Virus record (IMG/VR): IMGVR_UViG_3300022198_002861
Span: 1 to 37,054 of that record
DNA length: 37,054 bases
Direction: 5' to 3' (one strand)
Origin: a virus
Under the pieces are notes generated by a model, which was not told where the DNA came from, did no database searches, and saw only the letters and a list, made by a program, of their open reading frames with translations. Both the position numbers and the translations under genes were made by a program. This document shows, piece by piece, positions 9,603 through 37,054 of this stretch; position 1 is the stretch's first letter; the number at the start of each line of letters is the position of its first letter.

Positions 9603-10283
9603 ATGCCACAAGTAGATTGGAGCGAAATAATGGCAAGGGGCCAGCAGAAGAAGAGATACGCTGGCTTAAATGTGCAATTTTTTAATGCTTACAACGAAAA
9701 TGAAGAGAAATCGCTAAAAGAGGGTCGTCCAATATTTGACGAGATACCTTCAATAAGCATCCAGATACCAGGCGGCGACACTACGGTTAGACGTATAGAG
9801 CCGCAGGATATTCAGGATTATCCAGAAAAGTATGCAGCTTTCAAGGCAGGTTCAGAGCCTGTAACTGACGGCACACCTCTTTCAGAATGGCCTATGATGC
9901 CTGGCTCCGCTATGCGTGAGTTTCAGTACCTTGGTTTTAAGACCGTAGAGCAGGTAGCTAACGCTTCAGATGAAGCTCGCAGAAAGCTAGGCACTTTAAG
10001 CAAATTTATCAAAATGGCTAAGGAGTATTTAGACGCTGCTAATTCAGACCAGAATAGTGTAGCTAAACTCCGTGTTCAGTTAGATAATTACAAAGAAAGA
10101 TACGCTAAGCTTGAGGAAAGAGTAGAGCTTTTGATGCAGCGTATTGAAGCCAATGAAGGCACCGATCTTCGTTCAGAACGGAAGTCAACCGCTATTGATG
10201 AAGAGGAGGTGATCCAAGACGATCTAGACGAGGATGAGGTGGTAGCACGTCCTAGACTAAGGGGGAGGGCTAAAAGGATATGA
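9603..10283 (+). CDS. Conserved head-tail region protein with coiled coil
   Basis: 226 residues, GGAG site seven bases upstream. The N-terminal half has an ordered domain (FFNAYNENEEKSLKEGRPIF, then IPGGDTTVRRIEPQDIQDYP) followed by WPMMPGSAMREFQYLGFKTVEQVAN, a motif I associate with a conserved protein lying just after the coat genes in several podovirus-like phages. Residues about 155-195 form a coiled coil. The C-terminus is acidic then basic (RPRLRGRAKRI), suggesting DNA or capsid contact. The exact role is unknown. It overlaps the tail adaptor start by four bases (ATGA). Confidence 0.7.
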   Translation: MPQVDWSEIMARGQQKKRYAGLNVQFFNAYNENEEKSLKEGRPIFDEIPSISIQIPGGDTTVRRIEPQDIQDYPEKYAAFKAGSEPVTDGTPLSEWPMMPGSAMREFQYLGFKTVEQVANASDEARRKLGTLSKFIKMAKEYLDAANSDQNSVAKLRVQLDNYKERYAKLEERVELLMQRIEANEGTDLRSERKSTAIDEEEVIQDDLDEDEVVARPRLRGRAKRI

Positions 10284-11143
10284 CAATAGCCTCGATAATA
10301 CGCAACGTAGCTAATGAAGCTGGTTATACGGTAGAGTCAAACATACTTACTTCTACAGAAACTACTACAAAGCAGCTACTAGCTATTGCACAGCGTATCA
10401 ATCGAGACATCTTTGAAGCCTACCCCTGGCCTAAATGTTTTGCTGCGGGGTCGATTACGCTGGTAGCGGGTCAGGCAACTTATCCGCTGCCAGCTGCTTT
10501 TTCTCAATATCAGTACGACACTTTTTGGAATCAAAGCACCAGATGGCGAGTCCTTGGACCAATGTCAGAGCAGGACTTTGCAGAGATTAGAGGCTACGGC
10601 GTACTACCTAGAGTATATCAGCGGTTTCAAATAAGGGGATTAACCAACCAGGAATTGTTTATAAGCCCTACCCCTGATGCTGGGACCAATGGGCAAATAA
10701 TTATCTTTGAGTATATTGCAGACCGTTCAGTAGTCCCTAAAACATGGACTACAAGCACACTGTTTGCAGCCAATACCTACTGCTTTTACAACGGCAATTA
10801 TTACCGCACTACAGCAGGTGGCACTACAGGCGCTACTCCTCCTACGCATACTACGGGGAGCGTATCTGATGGCGGTGTAACTTGGACCTATTATGATGGG
10901 GCTTACAGCGAGTTTCTTGCTGATACTGATACAAGCATATTCCAAGAGAAACTAGTAGAGCAGGGAATATTAGAGCGATTCGCTCAAATACACGGCCTAG
11001 AAGGGGTAAGGCCACAGTTTGATACGCAACTACACGAAGAGTTTGGGCGCACCAAGGGCGGCAAAGTATTGTTTGCTGGAGGTATTACACGGCCTACTCA
11101 GTTTGGGCGTAACGGTACAGTTACTTTTGGAGGATGGATTTAA
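10280..11143 (+). CDS. Head-tail adaptor / tail tubular protein A-like
   Basis: 287 residues. The N-terminal helices (IIRNVANEAGY and LLAIAQRINRDIFEAYPWPK) followed by YPLPAAFSQYQ and LFISPTPD are characteristic of T7 gp11 / P22 gp4-type adaptor proteins, which dock the tail on the portal and stabilise packaged DNA. About residues 155-208 hold an insertion (NTYCFYNGNYYRTTAGGTTG to GGVTWTYYDG) of the short carbohydrate-binding-like repeat type found in many phage structural proteins. The C-terminal part returns to helix. ATGA overlap with the upstream gene. Confidence 0.8.
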   Translation: MTIASIIRNVANEAGYTVESNILTSTETTTKQLLAIAQRINRDIFEAYPWPKCFAAGSITLVAGQATYPLPAAFSQYQYDTFWNQSTRWRVLGPMSEQDFAEIRGYGVLPRVYQRFQIRGLTNQELFISPTPDAGTNGQIIIFEYIADRSVVPKTWTTSTLFAANTYCFYNGNYYRTTAGGTTGATPPTHTTGSVSDGGVTWTYYDGAYSEFLADTDTSIFQEKLVEQGILERFAQIHGLEGVRPQFDTQLHEEFGRTKGGKVLFAGGITRPTQFGRNGTVTFGGWI

Positions 11144-22249: not shown

Positions 22250-22509
22250 GGCCTATTATTTTTCCTGTGGCAGACGATTGGTGTGTTGTCTCCGCAGTCT
22301 CTAGTAGCCTGGTCTATAGCCTTGTCTACGTTAAGATTTTGGACTCTTTTTACTTCGATGTGATATTGGCTCAATTCGGTGCAAACTACGTCCGAATCGC
22401 CAGCCTTGCCACAAAACTGCTGCGTGCGTCTAGCTGTGAAGCCGTTTTCTTTTAGCTTATTAGCAAGCTCTCTCTCGCCTGCTGCTCCTTTAGCTCTTGA
22501 GTTTGTCAT
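22198..22509 (-). CDS. PD-(D/E)XK nuclease, Holliday-junction resolvase-like
   Basis: 103 residues, start coupled to the preceding gene by TAATG. The core is typical of Hjc-like resolvases: RAKGAAGERELANKLKENGF (Glu12), GKAGDSDVVC (Asp38/Asp40), YHIEVKRV (Glu52-x-Lys54) and a conserved helix with DKAIDQATRD. These are the metal-binding and catalytic residues of the PD-(D/E)XK superfamily. It could resolve branched DNA before packaging, next to Bet and the ssDNA-binding-like protein. The size fits the family (100-150). Confidence 0.8.
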   Translation of the reverse strand: MTNSRAKGAAGERELANKLKENGFTARRTQQFCGKAGDSDVVCTELSQYHIEVKRVQNLNVDKAIDQATRDCGDNTPIVCHRKNNRPWLVTMFLEDFLKLHQK

Positions 22510-23114
22510 TAGTAAAATACCTTATCTGAGTTAGCTACTGACCAGCGGTTGCAATCCTCTGCTGACCAGATTGTGTCCAGTGTAGCATATTCCTTTGTTG
22601 CTGCGCTCGGCCTATTTCCGATAAAGAAGGCGTCTTTGAAAAGGATTCTGTTGGTAGGCAAAGCTGCAACTTGTCCGTTATCCAGCAGAATGACGTGTGC
22701 ACATTTGTTTTGATCGGGCTGGAGCAGGAAAGCAGACTCAGAATCAGAATCAGGCAACCAATCGACCGTAAACCAATAGGTGCCAGAAACTTTAGTTTTG
22801 TCTTTAAGGATTGCATCACATTGATAACCTTTAAGCATATCAAAGGTAGTTACTATGGGGCGATAACTGAAACAATCCCATAATTGAAGAAGTTCCAAAG
22901 AGTACTTAGAACAGTCGCCGTCAATATCATCATGCCAAAGCCAATGCAGAGGGATATGACGAAAGTGAGCGCCTGATTCAAACAGCACATGAAACTGTAG
23001 CGCTCTTGCTTTGTATGATTGTATTGCAAATGCGTAGCCATGTTCAAACCCTTCTTTGCCGTTTAAGTTCTTGTTTTCTATCCAGACTTTTAGGGGTGGA
23101 ATATTTGCGTTCAT
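22509..23114 (-). CDS. Hypothetical protein
   Basis: 201 residues with GGAGG four bases before the start, which overlaps the previous stop (ATGA). It has a mixed alpha/beta composition with many aromatic residues. Recognisable local motifs are LQFHVLFESGAHFRHIPLHW and FLLQPDQNKCAHVILLDNGQ. There are no membrane segments or signal. I do not recognise a domain. It may be specific to phages of this type. Confidence 0.7.
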   Translation of the reverse strand: MNANIPPLKVWIENKNLNGKEGFEHGYAFAIQSYKARALQFHVLFESGAHFRHIPLHWLWHDDIDGDCSKYSLELLQLWDCFSYRPIVTTFDMLKGYQCDAILKDKTKVSGTYWFTVDWLPDSDSESAFLLQPDQNKCAHVILLDNGQVAALPTNRILFKDAFFIGNRPSAATKEYATLDTIWSAEDCNRWSVANSDKVFY

Positions 23115-24807: not shown

Positions 24808-25176
24808 TTAAAAAGGTAGATCATCGAAGTCTATTTCTTTCTCTACTACTGGCTGAGCTACTACAGGAGCTCGCCCGCTTAGCCAGCCTGAAGCCTCCTG
24901 AAGGAGCGCAATTAAGCTATCTACCTCTTCCTTGTAGAGATTTTTTGTCTCTTTCCAGGTGTTGGTCTGCTTATCTTTATATGTTTTCCTGATGGTTACG
25001 GTATGAGCTCCCTTAGCGGTCTCCCATATAGCCACATCGATACCCTTATTTTTAAATGTTTGAATTGGTCTGCTCACGTTATTTGCTCCTAACTTAGTTA
25101 ATAAACTGCTGACTACGTTGCTTATCTTTTCTGGTTGCTTGACATACTTGGTTTTGTTAAACTTATCATATCTCAT
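24808..25176 (-). CDS. ssDNA-binding-like protein with SSB-type C-terminal tail
   Basis: 122 residues. The central part (VAIWETAKGAHTVTIRKTYKDKQTNTWKETKNLYKEEVDSLIALLQEASGW) resembles small phage proteins with a WE...HTVT..++YKD....W..T....+..L+.L..LL+EA..W pattern, usually annotated as ssDNA-binding. The final residues (EIDFDDLPF) match the acidic Asp-Asp-x-Pro-Phe tip of bacterial SSB, the docking site for RecO, PriA, Exo I and other partners. The N-terminus is basic, as expected for DNA binding. Upstream lies the RHH protein and Bet, downstream the acidic protein. Inferred role: coat ssDNA and recruit host repair/replication proteins. Confidence 0.7.
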   Translation of the reverse strand: MRYDKFNKTKYVKQPEKISNVVSSLLTKLGANNVSRPIQTFKNKGIDVAIWETAKGAHTVTIRKTYKDKQTNTWKETKNLYKEEVDSLIALLQEASGWLSGRAPVVAQPVVEKEIDFDDLPF

Positions 25177-28030: not shown

Positions 28031-28080
28031 TGATATTGGATAATATAGGGCAACCCCCTTTGATATAGGATGATACTATG
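28031..28080 (+). repeat. Direct repeat pair next to the excisionase-like gene, possible operator
   Basis: TGATATTGGATAATATAG at 28031 and TGATATAGGATGATACTATG at 28061 are 30 bases apart and agree at 14 of the first 16 bases. The second overlaps the ribosome site and start codon of the regulator. Spacing and position suit autoregulation by a small HTH protein. Confidence 0.6.
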
Positions 28081-28263
28081 ACTAAAACACATGATCGAAC
28101 AAAAACTTGGCTAACTTCTAAGGAAATGATGCATTACTTGGCGCTTCCCAAAAGCACTTTTGAGCTTCTAATAAAGCGAGGAATGCCGTTATTGCGAATT
28201 GGTAAGATTCGCCGCTTTAAAATTCAAGAAGTGGAAACCTGGCTTAAAAATTTGGAGAAATAA
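28078..28263 (+). CDS. Excisionase/AlpA-type HTH regulator
   Basis: 61 residues with AGGA seven bases upstream. WLTSKEMMHYLALPKSTFELLIKRG is the helix-turn-helix and PLLRIGKIRRFKIQEVETWLKN the wing and final helix of the AlpA/excisionase (MerR-like) fold. There is no integrase in the window, so a transcription factor role is more likely than excision. First gene of the rightward replication operon and divergent from P1. Confidence 0.75.
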   Translation: MTKTHDRTKTWLTSKEMMHYLALPKSTFELLIKRGMPLLRIGKIRRFKIQEVETWLKNLEK

Positions 28264-28265
28264 CA

Positions 28266-28547
28266 ATGCTATATTTTGAGGAAATCAGAAAGTTAAACAA
28301 ACATGACGTAAAAAAGTATGGCCCTGTGGCTGCTGCGGTCTTGGACCGCATCATGCTTGAAGAAATTAACGGCTATTGTTTCAAATATCCACCCAAAAAA
28401 GCTGCTGCTTTGGTAAATCTGAACGAAAAACAATTCAAAGCCATTATTGATTTTCTTGCTGCGGTCGGGGCGTGCTGTGTGGCTGGGAACGCGATAATTA
28501 CCAACCCGCACCGAACACGCTTTAAAAAATTAAAAACATTAAAATAA
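28266..28547 (+). CDS. Small helical, possibly winged-helix protein of the replication operon
   Basis: 93 residues two bases after the regulator stop. Helical stretches YGPVAAAVLDRIMLEEINGY and EKQFKAIIDFLAAVGACCV and a basic end (HRTRFKKLKTLK) fit a small DNA-binding winged helix. GPVAAAVLDRI resembles replication-associated HTH segments. I do not recognise a family. It precedes the terminator/attenuator and initiator. Confidence 0.6.
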   Translation: MLYFEEIRKLNKHDVKKYGPVAAAVLDRIMLEEINGYCFKYPPKKAAALVNLNEKQFKAIIDFLAAVGACCVAGNAIITNPHRTRFKKLKTLK

Positions 28548-28584
28548 AAAAGCCTCTTCACCGACCAAGGACAAAGAGGCTTTT
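28548..28584 (+). terminator. Hairpin, terminator or attenuator before the initiator gene
   Basis: AAAAGCCTCTT pairs with AAGAGGCTTTT over a 15-base loop. The T run ends at 28584 and the initiator ribosome site (AGGAG) begins at 28585-28589, so the hairpin abuts the site. It may reduce read-through or influence initiator translation. Confidence 0.65.
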
Positions 28585-28596
28585 AGGAGCATATAC

Positions 28597-29199
28597 ATGA
28601 CTAACTTAACACAACCTGGGTTCTTTCGCCAAGTCTTTGATGTCTATCTTGACTTGGGACTGAGCTATCACCAAGCAGCTTTAGTAAATTATATCCACCG
28701 CTGGAATGATACCGGCCAAGAATGTTTTGCCGCTGTAGAAACCATAGCGGCAGAATTACGGCTTCCACTGAGAACAATGAGGCGAGTTATCGACCGTTCC
28801 ATAGCTGAAGGCATCATTGTAGGTAGCAGTGGAAAAGGTAGGGCGCGAGTCCTTAAAGTTACCGATACATTCCTGGAGCGAGTAAAATCACAGCTAGAAA
28901 CCCAAGTGGCCAAAGTGGACACCTTAAGTGTCCATTCTGTCACTTCAAGTGGCCACTTTGTCACAGTAAGTGGCCAAAGTGGACACCTATCTAGATCTAT
29001 ATCTAGATCTATACCTAGATCTACTTATCCAAACTTACCTTCTACTAAACTTGATCTAGTTAGTAACAAACTCGATCTAGTTAGTAAAAGTAATGATCTA
29101 GATCTAGAGCAACTAGATCAGTCTAGTAACAAATTAGATCAGTATACTATGCACTGGGATGAAGAAAGAAAAGCTATGGTGAGGCGAAGATGCCGATAA
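28597..29199 (+). CDS. Replication initiator-like protein (lambda O-like organisation)
   Basis: 200 residues with AGGAGC upstream. N-terminal 1-90 is a winged HTH: FFRQVFDVYLDLGLSYHQAALVNYIHRW, then CFAAVETIAAELRLPLRTMRRVIDRS. This resembles replication initiator/HTH_36 proteins that bind iterons. The rest (about 100-180) is low complexity (Ser/Thr/Leu/Asp-rich), being encoded by dense DNA repeats (28904-29140). The organisation, HTH domain followed by origin-like repeats within the gene, is that of lambda O. It ends with a short basic tail RRRCR. Function is inferred. Confidence 0.7.
   Translation: MTNLTQPGFFRQVFDVYLDLGLSYHQAALVNYIHRWNDTGQECFAAVETIAAELRLPLRTMRRVIDRSIAEGIIVGSSGKGRARVLKVTDTFLERVKSQLETQVAKVDTLSVHSVTSSGHFVTVSGQSGHLSRSISRSIPRSTYPNLPSTKLDLVSNKLDLVSKSNDLDLEQLDQSSNKLDQYTMHWDEERKAMVRRRCR
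28904..29145 (+). other. Candidate replication origin: iterons and GATC/CTAG-rich repeats inside the initiator gene
   Basis: First part (28904-28988): the tandem 9-mers AAGTGGCCA and AAGTGGACA occur as an identical pair at 28904 and 28968. Extra copies are AAGTGTCCA at 28926, the palindrome AAGTGGCCACTT at 28947-28958 and an inverted TGTCACTT at 28938. The two pairs are read in different codon phases, so the DNA and not the peptide is conserved. Second part: CTAGATCTA three times at exactly 12-bp spacing (28991, 29003, 29015), GATCTAGTTAGTAA at 29053 and 29074, and nine GATC and nine CTAG sites in about 150 bp. Such clustering suggests initiator sites and an unwinding or methylation-sensitive region. 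Confidence 0.7.
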
Positions 29200-29248
29200 A
29201 TCGGCCAAGGATGGTCAGGATTGAACGATCTAAGTGTAGGGTAGGGTT

Positions 29249-29290
29249 ACCCCTAGACTGAGATAGATATCGCAATCTAGGGGTGTTTTA
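29249..29290 (+). terminator. Terminator between the convergent rightward replication operon and the leftward operon
   Basis: ACCCCTAGA pairs with TCTAGGGGT across an 18-base loop, followed by GTTTTA. It overlaps the end of the leftward gene at 29288 and would stop the rightward replication transcript. Confidence 0.7.
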
Positions 29291-29548
29291 GAGGCCGATC
29301 TTTTCAATCTCTTTTAAGAGATCTCTGCCCTGTTCAGTTATCCAAATAATCCCAATGCCGCTGCCATGAGTGACCAGGCCTGCAGCGTCAAGCACTTTAG
29401 CCGAGAGTTCAACATCAACAGAAGCATAGGCCGTCCAATCTTCATTAGAGGCCGCCAAGCGTAACACGCTCAAAAGCAAATTCGCTGGCGAATCGGTCCC
29501 ACAATCGCAGAGACCGCATCGGCTGTAAATTAACTGCGCTTTTGTCAT
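29288..29548 (-). CDS. Small winged-helix-like protein, unknown
   Basis: 86 residues. Four N-terminal cysteines or so (SRCGLCDCGTD) may bind a metal. The C-terminal half (LSAKVLDAAGLVTHGSGIGIIWITEQGRDLLKEIEKIGL) has the helix-strand layout of a small winged-helix domain (a LxAAGLV ... W.T..G...L pattern). Last gene of the second leftward operon, close to a convergent terminator. No clear ribosome site, so it may be coupled to the upstream interrupted frame. Confidence 0.6.
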   Translation of the reverse strand: MTKAQLIYSRCGLCDCGTDSPANLLLSVLRLAASNEDWTAYASVDVELSAKVLDAAGLVTHGSGIGIIWITEQGRDLLKEIEKIGL

Positions 29549-29557
29549 GCTGATGGC

Positions 29558-29791
29558 CTAGCTACATGAAAGGTTAAAAGTAACGTTGATTATATCGGCG
29601 AGGCTTTTCGTGCGAGGTCTCCAACCCCAGCACTTTTGACCATCAATTTCAACAGTGCCAAATTGATATTTGCAGCGGACGCCTTGCTTAGCTGCTACCC
29701 TTGAGACTCCAACACTAGTAGCAGCTTATGAAACCATGCAAAGTAAATTACCGAGTTTGTCTACTACTGGGACCTTTGTTTTGTTTCTCAT
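29558..29791 (-). pseudogene. Interrupted small gene with in-frame TAA
   Basis: From ATG 29791 (AGAGGAATAT site, as in neighbours) the frame encodes 21 residues (MRNKTKVPVVDKLGNLLCMV) to TAA at 29726-29728. It then continues open in the same frame for 55 codons to TAG at 29558-29560. The second part is coherent (GVSRVAAKQGVRCKYQF, EIDGQKCWGWRP) and resembles a small NUMOD-like DNA-binding motif. CAA to TAA would be one base. It could be a nonsense mutation, sequencing error or regulated read-through. TAA is the normal stop elsewhere. Confidence 0.6.
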
Positions 29792-29810
29792 ATATTCCTC
29801 TATGTTAACG

Positions 29811-30215
29811 TTAAAAGTCAGAAAAGAATTCCTCAATAATCATCCTTTGATCTATCTCGGCCGGTTCCTCGCATTCCTTATAAAACGGAGACCACGGTGG
29901 TGTAGGTTGGTACCAACTGTAGTGAGCTTTAAAGCCGTCACCCTCCCAAGTAAGCAGGTTTCTTTCGTCGAACCAACCCACCGCTTCAACCTCGGCGCGT
30001 TCAGAGAGAGCGCGGATAATCGTCTCGGCAAAGTCTTCAGTCTCCGACTCAAACTTAACTAGCCTATACCTACCGTTGCGTGAGTCATAGCCCGTTGCCA
30101 GCACCTCAAAGTAGTTACCGGGGTATTCCTCCCGGTAGCTAGCAAGTAGATCTGCTACCGCTACTGCGCCAGTCAGGTGGTTAGTAATTTTAAGTATAAA
30201 GTTGTAATCGCTCAT
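29811..30215 (-). CDS. Hypothetical protein of the second leftward operon
   Basis: 134 residues with the common leader and AGAGGAATAT before ATG. Acidic with many aromatic residues. Begins MSDYNFILKITNHLTGAVAVADLLASY, a DxNFxLKITN pattern shared with several unknown phage proteins. It ends in an acidic tail (EIDQRMIIEEFFSDF). No membrane segment. A putative gene on the other strand (29670-30062) is a shadow. Function unknown. Confidence 0.7.
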   Translation of the reverse strand: MSDYNFILKITNHLTGAVAVADLLASYREEYPGNYFEVLATGYDSRNGRYRLVKFESETEDFAETIIRALSERAEVEAVGWFDERNLLTWEGDGFKAHYSWYQPTPPWSPFYKECEEPAEIDQRMIIEEFFSDF

Positions 30216-30239
30216 ATATTCCTCTGTTTTAAGTTAAAG

Positions 30240-30521
30240 TTAGTAAATCCCGCCTAGGTCGCTATCGCTATCGAATTGTGACCAATAGGCCTCCTCTATC
30301 TCGGCCTCATTACCATCCAGTCTGTTGGCCTCATCCCATAGCTGTTCTAACTCCTGTTTGCTTAAGTGTATACAGTTACCATCCGGCTCTATAAGGTCGT
30401 AATCTGCTAATTTGCCGTTGGTTATAAGGTAGTCAAGTATGCAATCGACCGTGTAGCACTCTGCCTCAAACTCATCGACTGTTACGTTTTTACTGTTTAT
30501 AAGTAGGTATTTATCACTCAT
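30240..30521 (-). CDS. Small acidic protein, unknown
   Basis: 93 residues. Strongly acidic in the C-terminal half (LDGNEAEIEEAYWSQFDSDSDLGG). Begins MSDKYLLINSKNVTVDEFEAECYTV. It follows the repeated leader AGGAAATATATG. The palindrome at 30555-30579 is 34 bases upstream. Could be a protein mimic or interaction domain. No family recognised. Confidence 0.65.
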   Translation of the reverse strand: MSDKYLLINSKNVTVDEFEAECYTVDCILDYLITNGKLADYDLIEPDGNCIHLSKQELEQLWDEANRLDGNEAEIEEAYWSQFDSDSDLGGIY

Positions 30522-30554
30522 ATATTTCCTATATTTTAATTTAAAGTTAGTACG

Positions 30555-30579
30555 AACTTGTAAGTATTATTTACAAGTT
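30555..30579. repeat. Perfect inverted repeat AACTTGTAA-N7-TTACAAGTT
   Basis: Nine-base arms separated by seven bases, located between the small gene at 30583-30726 and the acidic gene at 30521. There is no U tract, so a terminator is unlikely. A protein-binding site or RNA processing signal is possible. Confidence 0.65.
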
Positions 30580-30582
30580 AGT

Positions 30583-30726
30583 TTATTCAAATAAATCAGC
30601 GATATAAGCCTCAAAAGCCGCTATCGCCTCGTCTAGCTCATAAAAGTAGTAAACCTGCTTAATATACTCGCCGTTTACTATGTCCGTTATAAGTATACTT
30701 CCGTTGTGTTGGTGTTCTACTGTCAT
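30583..30726 (-). CDS. Small protein, unknown
   Basis: 47 residues, MTVEHQHNGSILITDIVNGE then YIKQVYYFYELDEAIAAFEA. It starts after a weaker form of the shared leader (ATAGGGTAAAATATATG). A small compact fold with strand-strand-helix is possible: ILITDIVNGEYIKQVYYF then DEAIAAFEAYIADLF. The reading frame fits the otherwise empty gap between the acidic gene and the clamp-like gene. Confidence 0.6.
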   Translation of the reverse strand: MTVEHQHNGSILITDIVNGEYIKQVYYFYELDEAIAAFEAYIADLFE

Positions 30727-30759
30727 ATATTTTACCCTATTTTAAGTTAGCGGAATTAC

Positions 30760-30806
30760 TAACTATAATCGGGTAGCTACTCTCACTAGCTACCCTGTTA
30801 TAGTTA
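30760..30806 (-). terminator. Large hairpin after the clamp-like gene
   Basis: TAACTATAA / TTATAGTTA outer arms and GGGTAGCT / AGCTACCC inner arms, separated by a 2-base bulge on each side and a 9-base loop. It lies just beyond the clamp-like stop. Without a U run it is more likely an RNA end-stabiliser, processing or weak termination site. Confidence 0.6.
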
Positions 30807-30807
30807 C

Positions 30808-31368
30808 CTATCGCAACGGCATGATAATAGCCATGAGGTTGTCGCAAGTTATATAGACACCAGGGTAACGTAGATCTAGATCACTATTGCGGCTTAAGGT
30901 CTGCTGATGGTCAGCGATTAAGGCATCAATGAAATAATCTAAGTTAATCTTTACACTATAAGGCTCAAATACTTCACAAGCGAGAAAGTTAAATTCGAAA
31001 CTTAGCTCCGGAGTAGTAAAATTAATACGCAAGTTGTTCGCGGCGAAAGTAAATAGGATGCTTGCCTCTTGGCCTCTTGGTATAAGAGTAGCTAGCTTCC
31101 TAAGCTTGGCTATCTCTTTCTTGCTAAAACGAAAGCTTGCTATAGCTACTGTAGTTTTGGGTAGTACGGCATCAATGCATGGCGCTGAGTCAATAGTTAA
31201 GTCACTATTGAGATAGTGAGGTGTAGCAGTCGGCAAGTCATTAGCTAAGTGCAGTCTGTGTCCGTCGGTACCGCATAATCTATTGGCTTCCCTGAAGGCT
31301 GATATCAGGTTATAGCGACCTTTGTCTGTACTTACCGCGCGATTGCAATATTCAGTGTAATTTATCAT
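30808..31368 (-). CDS. DnaN-like sliding clamp fragment (putative)
   Basis: 186 residues from ATG 31368. The longer frame to 31392 has no better site. CGTDGHRLHLANDLP matches the ATDGHRLA signature of the bacterial beta clamp. SVKINLDYFIDAL matches the NxxYLLDAL helix, and the extreme C-terminus DNLMAIIMPLR matches the VVMPMRL end. This is about half a normal DnaN (about 370), so it holds only one and a half to two domains. A ring would need a different stoichiometry. Next to a J-domain and initiator gene. It may tether host polymerase to phage DNA. Homology is inferred from motifs. Confidence 0.6.
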   Translation of the reverse strand: MINYTEYCNRAVSTDKGRYNLISAFREANRLCGTDGHRLHLANDLPTATPHYLNSDLTIDSAPCIDAVLPKTTVAIASFRFSKKEIAKLRKLATLIPRGQEASILFTFAANNLRINFTTPELSFEFNFLACEVFEPYSVKINLDYFIDALIADHQQTLSRNSDLDLRYPGVYITCDNLMAIIMPLR

Positions 31369-31405
31369 ATCTTTATTTCTCTGTTTTAACACACCAGCTT
31401 AATTG

Positions 31406-31456
31406 CTAGTGATCAATCGGTAGCTAGTAGTTAGCTAGCTACCTGTTGAGCACTAG
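31406..31456 (-). terminator. Long hairpin after the J-domain gene
   Basis: 22-base arms 31406-31427 and 31435-31456 pair with three mismatches over a 7-base loop. The inner part GGTAGCTAG/CTAGCTACC resembles the hairpin after the clamp-like gene. It overlaps the J-domain stop codon (31453-31455). No clear U run. Confidence 0.6.
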
Positions 31457-31944
31457 TGTATGGCCTTGCGCTTATCACTATCTTTAAATTCCTTATAACC
31501 ATACCTCATGGCTAAATGAGATAAGCCATATCGACTAGGTCGACCGTAGTACTTCGTTGCGGTGTAGTACCAACAAAGCCTATTTGGGTTCCATTTAAAG
31601 CCATTAGCTTTTAAGAGCTCTTTATATGGTTTGGTGTCACCTGTTACCCATAACCATGTCCCTATCAGCGCAACATTCACCCCGGGAAGCCTTGCACCGA
31701 CAATAAAAGCTATCTTATCTATTACAGATTGCTCTAAATTCTCATCATAATTATAGCGGTGATCCTTACCTGACTCACCTTTACTAGTGCTACCGTGTAG
31801 CCGCTTTAAGGCTTCGTGGTACTGATAGTTAATCGCTTGCATGGTAGCAGTCTCACCGCCTAAATCGGGATGGTGCTTAAAAGCTAAACGCTTATACTCG
31901 CTCTTAACGTGTTCAACACTAAATAAGTCATCAAAGTATCTCAT
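31453..31944 (-). CDS. J-domain protein with C-terminal Trp-rich domain
   Basis: 163 residues, first gene of the second leftward operon. N-terminal J domain (about 1-55): YFDDLFSVEHVKSEYKRLAFKHHPDLGG with the HPD tripeptide needed to stimulate DnaK, then ATMQAINYQYHEALKRL. After a Ser/Gly linker comes a second domain (about 95-130) with LIGTWLWVTGDTKPYKELLKANGFKWNPNRLCWYY. This is the W.tG.T.P+..LK..GF+W....CWY pattern found in other phage J-proteins. Like lambda P/DnaJ dependence, it may help remodel a replication complex. CGGAG site. Confidence 0.85.
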   Translation of the reverse strand: MRYFDDLFSVEHVKSEYKRLAFKHHPDLGGETATMQAINYQYHEALKRLHGSTSKGESGKDHRYNYDENLEQSVIDKIAFIVGARLPGVNVALIGTWLWVTGDTKPYKELLKANGFKWNPNRLCWYYTATKYYGRPSRYGLSHLAMRYGYKEFKDSDKRKAIH

Positions 31945-31981
31945 ATTATCTCTCCGTTTAGTTTAGTTAAGTTCAAATAGC

Positions 31982-32005
31982 ACAGTTAACTGTATAAAGT
32001 ACAGT
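31982..32005. promoter_or_regulatory. Operator candidate with three ACAGT/ACTGT half-sites
   Basis: ACAGTTAACTGT (31982-31993) is a perfect palindrome and ACTGTA-N5-TACAGT (31989-32005) a second, sharing a half-site. The second overlaps the -10 box of the leftward promoter (32003-32008). The divergent HTH gene at 32137 is the likely repressor. Confidence 0.65.
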
Positions 32006-32032
32006 ATAAGTACTAAGATGCTACTTAGTCAA
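32003..32032 (-). promoter_or_regulatory. Leftward promoter P2
   Basis: TTGACT (32027-32032) and TATACT (32003-32008) on the - strand, 18-base spacer containing GCATCTTAGT. This nearly repeats the spacer of P1 (27953-27981), and the bases before the -35 (AAATAC versus AAACAC) also agree. It drives the J-domain and clamp operon. Confidence 0.75.
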
Positions 32033-32136
32033 GTATTTTATGCAAATAGTTTCAATTATTTTATGCGGCTAGTAATATCGGGTAGTTATAAATAGGGGCT
32101 TGCGTTAGAGTATAGTGAGAGATTAGCTTAGATAAT

Positions 32137-32436
32137 ATGTGCAATATTGTCCGCCATTCGCCTAAACGTTCGCAATATAATCCAGCTCCGGCGAAGATAC
32201 TTGAAGGGTATCGGCACACGTTGCCTAGTGCGAGGGGGAACCTATATCTAGCAGTAAGGAAGGCAATGGGATTAACTCGCAAGCCGTTCGCTGATGCGCT
32301 AGGGATTAATGTGGCATCATTACGGTACCGTGAGCGAGCTAAGCAGCTGTATCATCCACTGGAAGTGTTGGTGTTATATCAGGTCAGTGGTATGACATGG
32401 GACGAGTTTGGTAAATTACTTAATGATATCGCATAG
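32137..32436 (+). CDS. HTH transcriptional regulator, divergent to the J-domain operon
   Basis: 99 residues. The middle (about 43-70, AMGLTRKPFADALGINVASLRYRERAKQL) has a Xre/Cro-like helix-turn-helix. It is followed by YHPLEVLVLYQVSGMTWDEFGKLLNDIA, where conserved Trp/Phe in a closing helix resemble small phage regulators. The ribosome site is poor, so expression may be low or start at another codon. Its position across from P2 and the operator suggests repression of the leftward operons or a switch. Confidence 0.65.
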   Translation: MCNIVRHSPKRSQYNPAPAKILEGYRHTLPSARGNLYLAVRKAMGLTRKPFADALGINVASLRYRERAKQLYHPLEVLVLYQVSGMTWDEFGKLLNDIA

Positions 32437-32669: not shown

Positions 32670-33389
32670 ATGAGCGATAGCGATTTAAAACAGGACTCGG
32701 ATACAGAGGCTGACCCAATTTTAAAAAATCCCGAATTACCCAAGCCGTATTACCAGGACGATTATGTAACGCTGTACCACGCTGATTGCAGGGAGGTGTT
32801 GCCGTTATTAGAGCCTGTAGATTTAGTGCTTACTGACCCGCCTTATGGGATAGGGGAAGCTAGAGATAAAAGCAAAAGTCGAAATAGAGGAATAAGACTA
32901 GCCGTACAAAAAGATTACGGCAATTTTGACTGGGACGATAAGCCAATAGACCAAGACTTAATCAATCAGCTAATTACTCAACCAGCAATAATCTTTGGGG
33001 GTAATTACTATACTATGCCACCTTCAGCTTGTTGGTTAGTTTGGGACAAACATCAAACAGGGGATTTTGCTGATTGTGAATTAGCCTGGACTAATCTGCC
33101 TGGTGCTGTAAGGCGTATTAATTACCTTTGGAATGGGATGATTAAACAACGTCCAGAGCAAAGATGGCACCCTACACAAAAGCCATTGGACGTTATGAAA
33201 TGGTGTATTACTCAAGCTGATACTAAACTTAAAAACAAAATAACTACTATTTTAGACCCGTTTGCTGGTTCAGGAACTACGCTTAGGGCGGCTAAAGATA
33301 TGAGCCGTAAGGCTATAGGTATTGAGCGAGAAGAACAGTATTGCGAGGTAGCAGCAAAGCGATTGCGTCAGGAGGTATTAGGTTTATGA
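32670..33389 (+). CDS. DNA methyltransferase, beta-class (N6-A or N4-C)
   Basis: 239 residues. Motif IV TDPPYGIG (residues 55-62) comes before motif I-like ILDPFAGSGTTLRAA (about 194-208) with HPTQKPLDVMKW between, the order of beta-class enzymes (N6_N4_Mtase). DPPY indicates adenine-N6 or cytosine-N4 methylation using S-adenosylmethionine. No recognition domain allows prediction of the site. Probably protects phage DNA from host restriction. The weak ribosome site makes the start uncertain. The stop overlaps the next start (ATGA). Confidence 0.85.
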   Translation: MSDSDLKQDSDTEADPILKNPELPKPYYQDDYVTLYHADCREVLPLLEPVDLVLTDPPYGIGEARDKSKSRNRGIRLAVQKDYGNFDWDDKPIDQDLINQLITQPAIIFGGNYYTMPPSACWLVWDKHQTGDFADCELAWTNLPGAVRRINYLWNGMIKQRPEQRWHPTQKPLDVMKWCITQADTKLKNKITTILDPFAGSGTTLRAAKDMSRKAIGIEREEQYCEVAAKRLRQEVLGL

Positions 33390-35565: not shown

Positions 35566-37054
35566 AGCAAAAAACACCAAGGCCATTGATAAAGAAATAT
35601 TCCTCTACTTGGTGGAAAAAGCAGATAGATCAGGCTAATACTCGCTACGAAAAGTTCATTAAAACAGCAGATGAATCCATAAAGGTATTTAACGCCTATA
35701 AAGAGGTTGATACCCTACGAGATGCTCCACGCCGCCTAAACGTATGGTGGTACTGCATAAATACGCTATTACCTGCCTATTACAGCTCTACACCAAAAGC
35801 TGAGGTAAACCTCCGCAAACGAGCTGGGGGGCTACCTTATGAGCTAGGGAGCGTCATCCTTGAGCGTAATACTCAGTACTCAATGGATTGCCATTTTAGC
35901 TTTGATAAGGTCGGCTATAACGCAGCATTACAGTTTCTTTTAACAGGTCAGGCGGTTCTTTGGGCTAGGTACGAGCCTAAGTTTGAGAAAGTCTTTCAAG
36001 AAATCGCAATAATTCGAGACCCTAACGGCAATTTTATTCAAGGTGACGGTAGTCCTTATGATGGCGATACGGAAAGTTTGCAGGAAGCTAGCTCTGGTAT
36101 TTTTATATCGTCTGTTGAGGTCGAGCGTAAAGTTAGCGAAAAAGCTATACTTGAGGTTGTCCAATTCTCAGATTACCGTGCTTCAGATGCTAGAAACGAG
36201 TCAGAAATTGAATGGCAAGCCAAAAGAGCCTACCTGGATAGGGACCAAGCAACGGCATTATTTGGCGAAGAAAAAGCAGATAAGCTTAGTTATGACAGTG
36301 TCCCCGAAATCAGAAAACGAGAGGCCAGCAAGGACGGAAACAAACTAGAAGGTAAGGCCGAGGTTTGGGAAATCTGGTGTGAAGCTACCAATAAGGTATA
36401 TTGGTTACAGCTTGGTTTTGATGGCGAGATTATAGAGGAAACAGAGCCACCAATTAAGTTTGAGGGTTTTTATCCTTGCGCTGTTATACGCCAGACTCAA
36501 GACCCTACAAGCATTGTCCCAACGTCAGATTACGCTCACGCTAAAGACCAAATACTAGAGGTAGAGCGCCTCACGACTCGTATCCATGCCCTAACTCAAG
36601 CCATTAGGCCAAACTTTCTGTTTGATGCTGCTATGGGTGATTACCTTGAGCAGCTTTTCCAGGATGACCTTAAAGGTATTAGCGTAACCGGCTGGACCGC
36701 TAACAAGGGGAGAGGCGGGTTACAAGGTGGAATGGAATTCCTGCCCGTAGAGCAGTTTGTAAACGTACTTAACACCTTACAACAGAACAGACAAAACGCT
36801 TTACAGCAGCTTTACGAGACTCTAAAGGTATCAGACCTCTTACGAGGCACCTCAGAGCAGTACAAGTCCGCTACGGCTAATAGGCTAGAAAATCAATGGT
36901 CCAGCCTTGGACTAATCGTGCGCCAAAACATGTTTAGCAAGTTTATATCTGATGCAATTATGCATCTTGGCACGATTATTGCGGAGCAGTTTGACCCAGA
37001 GCGCATCATGGAGACCGCAGATGCAGACGCTCTTATAGAGCCTACCATTTACAT
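35562..37054 (+). CDS. Portal protein, N-terminal and central part (continues across the window edge)
   Basis: The ATG at 35562 overlaps the terminase stop. 497 complete codons follow, then AT. The gene continues at base 1 to the stop at 1066, giving about 852 residues. The first part has KKYSSTWWKKQIDQANTRYEKFI, LPAYYSSTPKAEVNLRKRAG and the stem and wing segments (FDGEIIEETEPPIKFEGFYP, QDPTSIVPTSDYAHAKDQIL) typical of large podovirus portals. QNRQNALQQLYETLKVSDLLRG is the usual portal helix. It forms the dodecameric DNA entry vertex. Confidence 0.95.
   Translation, partial: MKQKTPRPLIKKYSSTWWKKQIDQANTRYEKFIKTADESIKVFNAYKEVDTLRDAPRRLNVWWYCINTLLPAYYSSTPKAEVNLRKRAGGLPYELGSVILERNTQYSMDCHFSFDKVGYNAALQFLLTGQAVLWARYEPKFEKVFQEIAIIRDPNGNFIQGDGSPYDGDTESLQEASSGIFISSVEVERKVSEKAILEVVQFSDYRASDARNESEIEWQAKRAYLDRDQATALFGEEKADKLSYDSVPEIRKREASKDGNKLEGKAEVWEIWCEATNKVYWLQLGFDGEIIEETEPPIKFEGFYPCAVIRQTQDPTSIVPTSDYAHAKDQILEVERLTTRIHALTQAIRPNFLFDAAMGDYLEQLFQDDLKGISVTGWTANKGRGGLQGGMEFLPVEQFVNVLNTLQQNRQNALQQLYETLKVSDLLRGTSEQYKSATANRLENQWSSLGLIVRQNMFSKFISDAIMHLGTIIAEQFDPERIMETADADALIEPTIY

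Follow-up and report, generated by a model that had tools for sequence, protein, structure and literature searches.

Gene O of phage lambda carries its iterons, four in number, together with an AT-rich tract in the middle of its coding sequence (extract of PMC7466680). Phage RB43 encodes a J protein of its own, Rki, that recruits host DnaK (extract of PMC3486835), and for the beta clamp, DnaN, the 18 residues of the peptide pocket are listed in a review (extract of PMC11139829). These systems were compared with a 37,054-base virus record of a freshwater-type tailed phage (IMG/VR record IMGVR_UViG_3300022198_002861; the whole stretch is hereafter called the window). An earlier note, made from its letters alone, had described in the window an O-like initiator with embedded repeats, a J-domain protein and a clamp-like protein, and had read them as a possible host-dependent replication module. 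We consider it fairly likely that the O-like gene encodes a lambda-O-type initiator with an inner origin, while the J gene and the small clamp gene (mini-clamp) are independent accessory cassettes, the latter serving as a decoy or adaptor.

A putative origin within the O-like gene

Relatives of the window were gathered by scanning IMG/VR with its TerS and RecT proteins, and 47 of the 122 loci collected were compared with it, giving a set of 48 that includes the near-duplicate pairs L028/L030, L090/L091, L110/L112 and L115/L116. The O gene occupies the same position in 43 of the 48 loci and is thus a core gene of this freshwater phage clade; the N-terminal half of the protein can be aligned, and the remainder is highly variable. 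Both the O-like gene and the repeats embedded in it were confirmed in the window. The four iterons are spaced by 22, 21 and 21 bp, and an exact 19-nt repeat is present at the first and the last of them, where none was expected from 100 shuffles.

Repeats of this kind are a property of the family. Short repeats (12-mers with up to one mismatch) reach at least three copies in 39 of 45 O open reading frames (ORFs), compared with 8 of 213 control genes taken from these loci, and at least four copies in 25 of 45, compared with 0 of 213. For the analysis of spacing and base composition, the set was reduced from 45 to 35 by removing duplicates, genes with fewer than three copies and genes without a run. 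Iteron spacings fall between 21 and 24 bp in 67 of 99 cases, and the mean A+T fraction rises from 0.55 in the repeats and ahead of them to 0.69 over the next 100 bp, a pattern found in 35 of 35 distinct O genes; in the case of the window and a few other genes, the first coordinate taken as 'iterons' in this analysis is that of the CTAGATCTA block and not that of the GC-richer iterons. The tract adjoining the iterons of the window (Table 1) is, from its composition, a probable unwinding element.

A replication-initiation PHROG is matched by 30 of the 34 aligned O members at E<=1e-3, the window member not being among them. The 'O-like' PHROG is matched by 28 of the 34 and HTH_36 by 21; on its own the window protein falls below threshold for the latter (E 0.0011) and matches phrog_391 'O-like' at E 0.01. 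With iterons inside the gene, an adjacent AT-rich tract and an N-terminal winged helix of the initiator kind, the O-like gene most likely encodes a lambda-type initiator with the origin inside the gene, as judged from these sequence features.

A DnaD-like loader was also considered as an identity for O and rejected. Although phrog_186 is matched by 22 of the 34 members (E<=1e-3) and Pfam DnaD_N by 6, the DnaD C-terminal domain is not among the Pfam families listed for O members, and the matches are therefore read as reflecting a shared winged helix. Between the small upstream genes and the ribosome-binding region of O lies a 15-pair hairpin (28548-28584), which could possibly act as an attenuator or translational switch for O.

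Exchangeable tails and probable dependence on the host

The O proteins end in short tails of several types. Using patterns written by the analyst, those of 36 O proteins were sorted into type A (14 proteins, ending in (Y/W)xD(I/L/V)PE), type B (11, MxWdExxxxMVRRK), type C (4, FGLRRRFGDA), type D (2, longer and of WW type) and other (5), with L099 classed as 'other' and by eye bearing the class D tail of L043. A single winged-helix group of 11 has tails A, B, C and D, and in the window's own group of four every member has a different tail, so that the DNA-binding part with its iterons and the tail are exchanged independently.

Searches for helicases and loaders covered 13 near-complete records, namely the window and 12 relatives. 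DnaB_C (PF03796) found no match in any of the 13, nor did IstB/DnaC (PF01695) at E<=0.1 or lambda P (PF06992) at E<=1, in agreement with the earlier note, which could see no loader or helicase. Family scans of the window's non-structural ORFs likewise returned no helicase or loader, polymerase and primase families not having been searched across the relatives. Since none of these homologues is present, dependence on the host replisome is likely, and phage replication most likely draws on host helicase, primase and polymerase. For the same reason the O tail is probably a docking tail for the host helicase, or for its loader.

Tail A resembles the tip of the single-stranded DNA-binding protein (SSB), except that its last F is replaced by E (e.g. 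NYDDLPE). Of all the ORF clusters that were compared, only O and an SSB-like cluster have ends of the form D(I/L/V)P(E/F). A conserved 122-amino acid protein (24808-25176, minus strand) ends in IDFDDLPF, and a D(I/L/V)PF end is present in 25 of the 38 ORFs of its cluster. We take this end to be like the acidic tip of bacterial SSB; the product, which has no Pfam hit, is probably a phage single-stranded DNA-binding protein.

J and clamp genes as separate cassettes

The J ORF does have the intact HPD motif reported for it, with H25-P26-D27 invariant in eight of eight aligned sequences. The protein matches phrog_15863 with E 1.4e-28 and Pfam DnaJ with E 0.0014, under the curated cut-off (19.2 of 27.8 bits). 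Relatives covering most of the protein were found in 2,695 of 72,556 plasmid records, of which 2,202 are typed as conjugative, and relatives were found in 15 of 50,697 phage records. No evidence links the J protein of the window to replication. The family, composed of a J domain plus a C-terminal domain, is common to Cellulophaga, Fusobacterium and Enterococcus phages (L162, L161 and L163) and thousands of plasmids; its C-terminal domain bears the motif G-x-W-x-W-V-T-G-D-T and has no named function.

Co-occurrence of the three genes was assessed in 39 loci with O and a downstream XRE gene. J lies between the two in 5 of these and the clamp in 2; both are present in the window alone, which is therefore the single locus of the 39 to hold all three genes. 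Neither J nor the clamp is present in any of the 12 near-complete relatives. The higher count for J in the full set (9 of 48 loci) is inflated by L082, L085 and L088, which have no O gene and were included for carrying J; the 39-locus set excludes these three. At the DNA level, the clamp segment of the window matches L018, which has the clamp and no J between O and XRE, up to ~31410; from ~31404 onwards, the J segment matches L023, where J but no clamp lies in that stretch. This is the pattern expected of single-gene exchange. J and the clamp are independent one-gene accessory cassettes in a hypervariable block and not parts of a module, and an obligate O-J-clamp module is ruled out by the lack of co-occurrence. 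Of the host-dependent replication module put forward in the earlier note, the host dependence is thus retained, given the lambda-O-type initiator and origin and the lack of DnaB, DnaC or lambda P homologues, and the module is not.

A clamp derivative that retains the peptide pocket

The clamp-like ORF of the earlier note could be identified as a DnaN derivative by profile-profile comparison (E 1.2e-6 against DnaN) and by an AlphaFold2 (AF2) model. Its sequence-family matches are weak (phrog_947, E 1.2e-4; NCBIfam DnaN, E 4.6e-4; Pfam beta_3, E 0.15). The AF2 model, calculated from 13 IMG/VR sequences with an alignment that included full-length DnaN, has a predicted local distance difference test score (pLDDT) of 73.6 and a predicted template modelling score (pTM) of 0.74, and its residues 8-194 align with residues 132-365 of E. 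coli beta (Z 16-17, root-mean-square deviation ~3 Å, 169-179 residues). Besides the GTG start, an alternative start is available at an ATG at codon 9.

Aligned with E. coli DnaN, the protein has no domain I (2 of 125 positions), hardly any of the second half of domain II (5 of 51) and the whole of domain III. Given these losses, a normal dimeric ring is impossible, and the 'processivity-like factor' of the earlier note becomes doubtful for want of the ring-making parts. The pocket is well kept: 14 of its 18 residues are identical to those of E. coli, compared with 20 of 157 positions elsewhere (Fisher p 1.5e-8), and a second alignment gave 14 of 18 compared with 26 of 165. Two copies of the window-type mini-clamp differ by 0.109 non-synonymous (dN) and 1.86 synonymous (dS) substitutions per site, the latter near saturation, with dN/dS ~0.06, and are under purifying selection. 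A search for the clamp-binding motif in the window's proteins was uninformative, the pattern matching the ORF at 10280-11143 and TerL only.

Mini-clamps in other phages

Proteins of a comparable kind were identified in other phages. Klebsiella phage 6991 encodes a 178-amino acid 'DNA polymerase III beta subunit' (L145:2686-3222), which is matched in 294 phage records, in 281 of them over at least 80% of its length. Five named mini-clamps of 173-206 amino acids have neither domain I nor the first half of domain III (6-8 of 62 positions) and keep 12-15 of the 18 pocket residues. The mini-clamps L126-L142 were found through the pattern GTDGHRLH, so that their identity at residues 172-177 is not independent; when these residues are set aside, the window mini-clamp keeps 9 of 13. 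The window type is built from half-domains IIa, IIIa and IIIb and the Klebsiella type from IIa, IIb and IIIb, and both hold the two half-domains that build the pocket. As at least two different deletions have led to the same outcome, selection may act on the pocket. The mini-clamp genes of Shewanella phage 1/41 and Escherichia phage fBC-Eco01 each stand singly among structural genes and are read from the opposite strand, in the manner of a moron.

We tentatively propose that phages repeatedly carry ring-less fragments of the beta clamp in which only the two half-domains of the pocket are kept, and that these may serve, in soluble form, as sponges or adaptors for those host proteins that bear a clamp-binding motif. 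Such a class would so far have gone unnoticed because of the names given to it, 'DNA polymerase III beta subunit' in some cases and, in PHROGs, 'RusA-like Holliday junction resolvase' in others. No paper describing a ring-less phage clamp was found in the open PubMed Central literature, and an earlier description is possible.

The latter name belongs to phrog_3007, which the Klebsiella phage 6991 mini-clamp matches over its full length (E 1.7e-59); the same protein aligns to DnaN (TIGR00663, E 3.2e-10). In several RefSeq phage records, proteins that match the mini-clamp are annotated with the resolvase name.

Alternative explanations

The repeats within O might instead be operators, with O an autoregulatory transcription factor and the origin elsewhere. 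The winged helix of a few O members also matches transcription-factor families, and a hairpin stands directly before the O start; however, the repeats sit within the coding region instead of at a promoter, an AT-rich tract comes after them in all 35 genes, and replication initiators are the commonest family matches of O, which together make this explanation improbable. We find it very hard to accept that O, J and the mini-clamp form a single, co-adapted replication module by which the host replisome is taken over. The three genes do lie within 3.4 kb, and J and the clamp are neighbours on one strand, separated by a 60-bp gap, with a promoter-like site preceding J and a hairpin following the clamp. 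Across the relatives, however, J and the clamp are separate and mostly neither is beside the conserved O, which itself lies on the opposite strand, and the abundance of J relatives on plasmids is against such a module as well.

For the mini-clamp, the main rival to a decoy or adaptor is a true processivity factor that tethers host DNA polymerase III (Pol III), either as an unusual oligomer with three half-domains per subunit or as a monomer. Domain III is complete, the hydrophobic pair corresponding to I272/L273 of E. coli is kept as L-I, and clamp-like phage proteins of ~210-220 amino acids are among the best fold matches. Nevertheless, domain I, which provides one side of the dimer contact, is absent along with most of the second half of domain II, and the net charge is just +1. 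Moreover, the other mini-clamps are without the first half of domain III, so that what the two types have in common is the pocket and not a ring interface. We therefore regard a processivity role as doubtful. That the gene is a decaying remnant of a captured dnaN, as its large deletions relative to DnaN and its rarity in the clade might suggest, is scarcely credible given the low dN/dS between the two copies, the retention of the pocket while the rest diverged and the similar proteins in 294 phage records.

Several observations also count against the explanation that we favour, a lambda-type initiator accompanied by accessory cassettes. The O protein of the window has by itself no family match at E<=1e-3, and a loader of unknown family may be encoded among the conserved unknown genes, for example at 22509-23114. 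The AF2 model of the mini-clamp is not fully independent, because the full-length DnaN in its alignment may bias the fold, and AF2 on two mini-clamp sequences alone reached a pLDDT of 40. Full-length clamps also keep 15-17 of the 18 pocket residues, which points to retention rather than special decoy design, and the window-type mini-clamp is known from two copies only.

Gene layout of the region

The features of the region are collected in Table 1. O is convergent with the J and clamp genes, and the block between O and the XRE-like gene (29200-32136) consists of hypervariable small minus-strand genes that differ in nearly every relative, most of the families being small and matchless. A terminator scan returned 5 hairpins compared with 3.2 expected from shuffles. 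The promoter-like site before J is weak, since the region has fewer such sites than shuffles do.

Table 1. Coordinates of genes and sequence elements in the replication region of the window
Feature	Position	Strand	Remarks
Small helix-turn-helix (HTH) protein	28078..28263	+	5' of O, same strand; Pfam HTH_17 E 1.4e-5
93-amino acid protein, function unknown	28266..28547	+	5' of O, same strand
O-like replication initiator (putative), 200 amino acids	28597..29199	+	N-terminal winged helix, repeat-encoded linker, short tail
Four iterons	28904, 28926, 28947, 28968 (span 28904..28986)	+	Within O gene; AAGTGGCCA-like units
AT-rich tract, ~160 bp	28990..29156	+	68-70% A+T vs 47-57% upstream; CTAGATCTA-type repeats
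O C-terminal tail, type B (MxWdExxxxMVRRK)	29137..29196	+	Pattern match; exchangeable
Inverted repeat	29249..29284		Between convergent O gene and minus-strand accessory block; absent from terminator-scan list
Terminator-like hairpin	30771..30795	-	Directly 3' of mini-clamp gene; weak
Mini-clamp, 194 amino acids from GTG	30808..31392	-	DnaN domain III with half of domain II; accessory cassette
J-domain protein, 163 amino acids	31453..31944	-	Conserved C-terminal domain; accessory cassette
Promoter-like site	32003..32032	-	5' of J; 10/12 matches; weak
XRE-like gene, conserved	32137..32436	+	Boundary of variable block

Further downstream, a DNA N6/N4-methyltransferase gene (32670-33389, plus strand; Pfam E 3.2e-22) is present in 9 of 48 loci. 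The ORF at 53-1066 clusters with proteins of the relatives that have a median length of 856, and the two ends of the record (1-1066 and 35566-37054) seem to be one split gene; the record may therefore be a complete circle cut within the portal gene. The closest isolate by TerL is Pseudanabaena phage Pam5, whose 41.6% identity is too distant for host assignment. Searching genome_contigs with TerL and the mini-clamp gave no relative of either.

Proposed mechanism and comparison with known systems

From the iterons, the AT-rich tract, their family-wide order, the swapping of tails and the lack of DnaB, DnaC or lambda P homologues, all of which are observed, we infer binding, melting, recruitment and the use of host enzymes as follows. 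The O winged helix would bind the in-frame iterons, and the adjoining AT-rich tract would melt. The short exchangeable C-terminal tail would recruit the host helicase or its loader, as the phage brings none, and host primase and Pol III would then copy the genome. J and the clamp would be two independent early accessory cassettes outside the replication machine, with J predicted to direct host DnaK, probably, to a phage or host client, and the mini-clamp most likely binding, as a decoy or as an adaptor that would bias the host replisome, those host proteins that have clamp-binding motifs.

The freshwater phage clade thus appears to share a lambda-like initiator with an inner origin, in which the DNA-binding part with its iterons and the putative docking tail are exchanged independently, and the short O tails are candidates for direct, loader-free recruitment of a helicase. 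Mini-clamps that keep the pocket and are unable to form a normal ring occur in unrelated phages, some of them misnamed in a library that is widely used. Should they bind clamp-binding motifs, they would give phages a simple way to act on host Pol III, on repair and on the control of initiation.

The window mini-clamp shares with the DnaN beta clamp the peptide-pocket residues and the fold of domain III plus that of half of domain II, and differs from it in having no domain I and little of the second half of domain II. The proteins of the Klebsiella phage 6991 type (phrog_3007) are likewise DnaN derivatives without domain I and with the pocket kept, although they drop the first half of domain III and not the second half of domain II, and have no BLAST similarity to the window mini-clamp at E<=0.01. 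Rki of RB43, to which the J protein of the window can be likened by description only, is also a J-domain protein encoded by a phage; the J protein of the window is a member of a family, with a J domain and a C-terminal domain, that is common on plasmids. The closest parallel for O is phage lambda O with ori-lambda, where iterons, again four as in the window, and an AT-rich tract lie inside the gene. The window phage differs in having no recognisable P-type loader partner, and its O is therefore treated as O-like in working and not as a member of an O/P system; nor does the window protein alone have a significant family match. The iteron sequences and tails of the clade also differ from those of lambda, and they are swapped within the clade.

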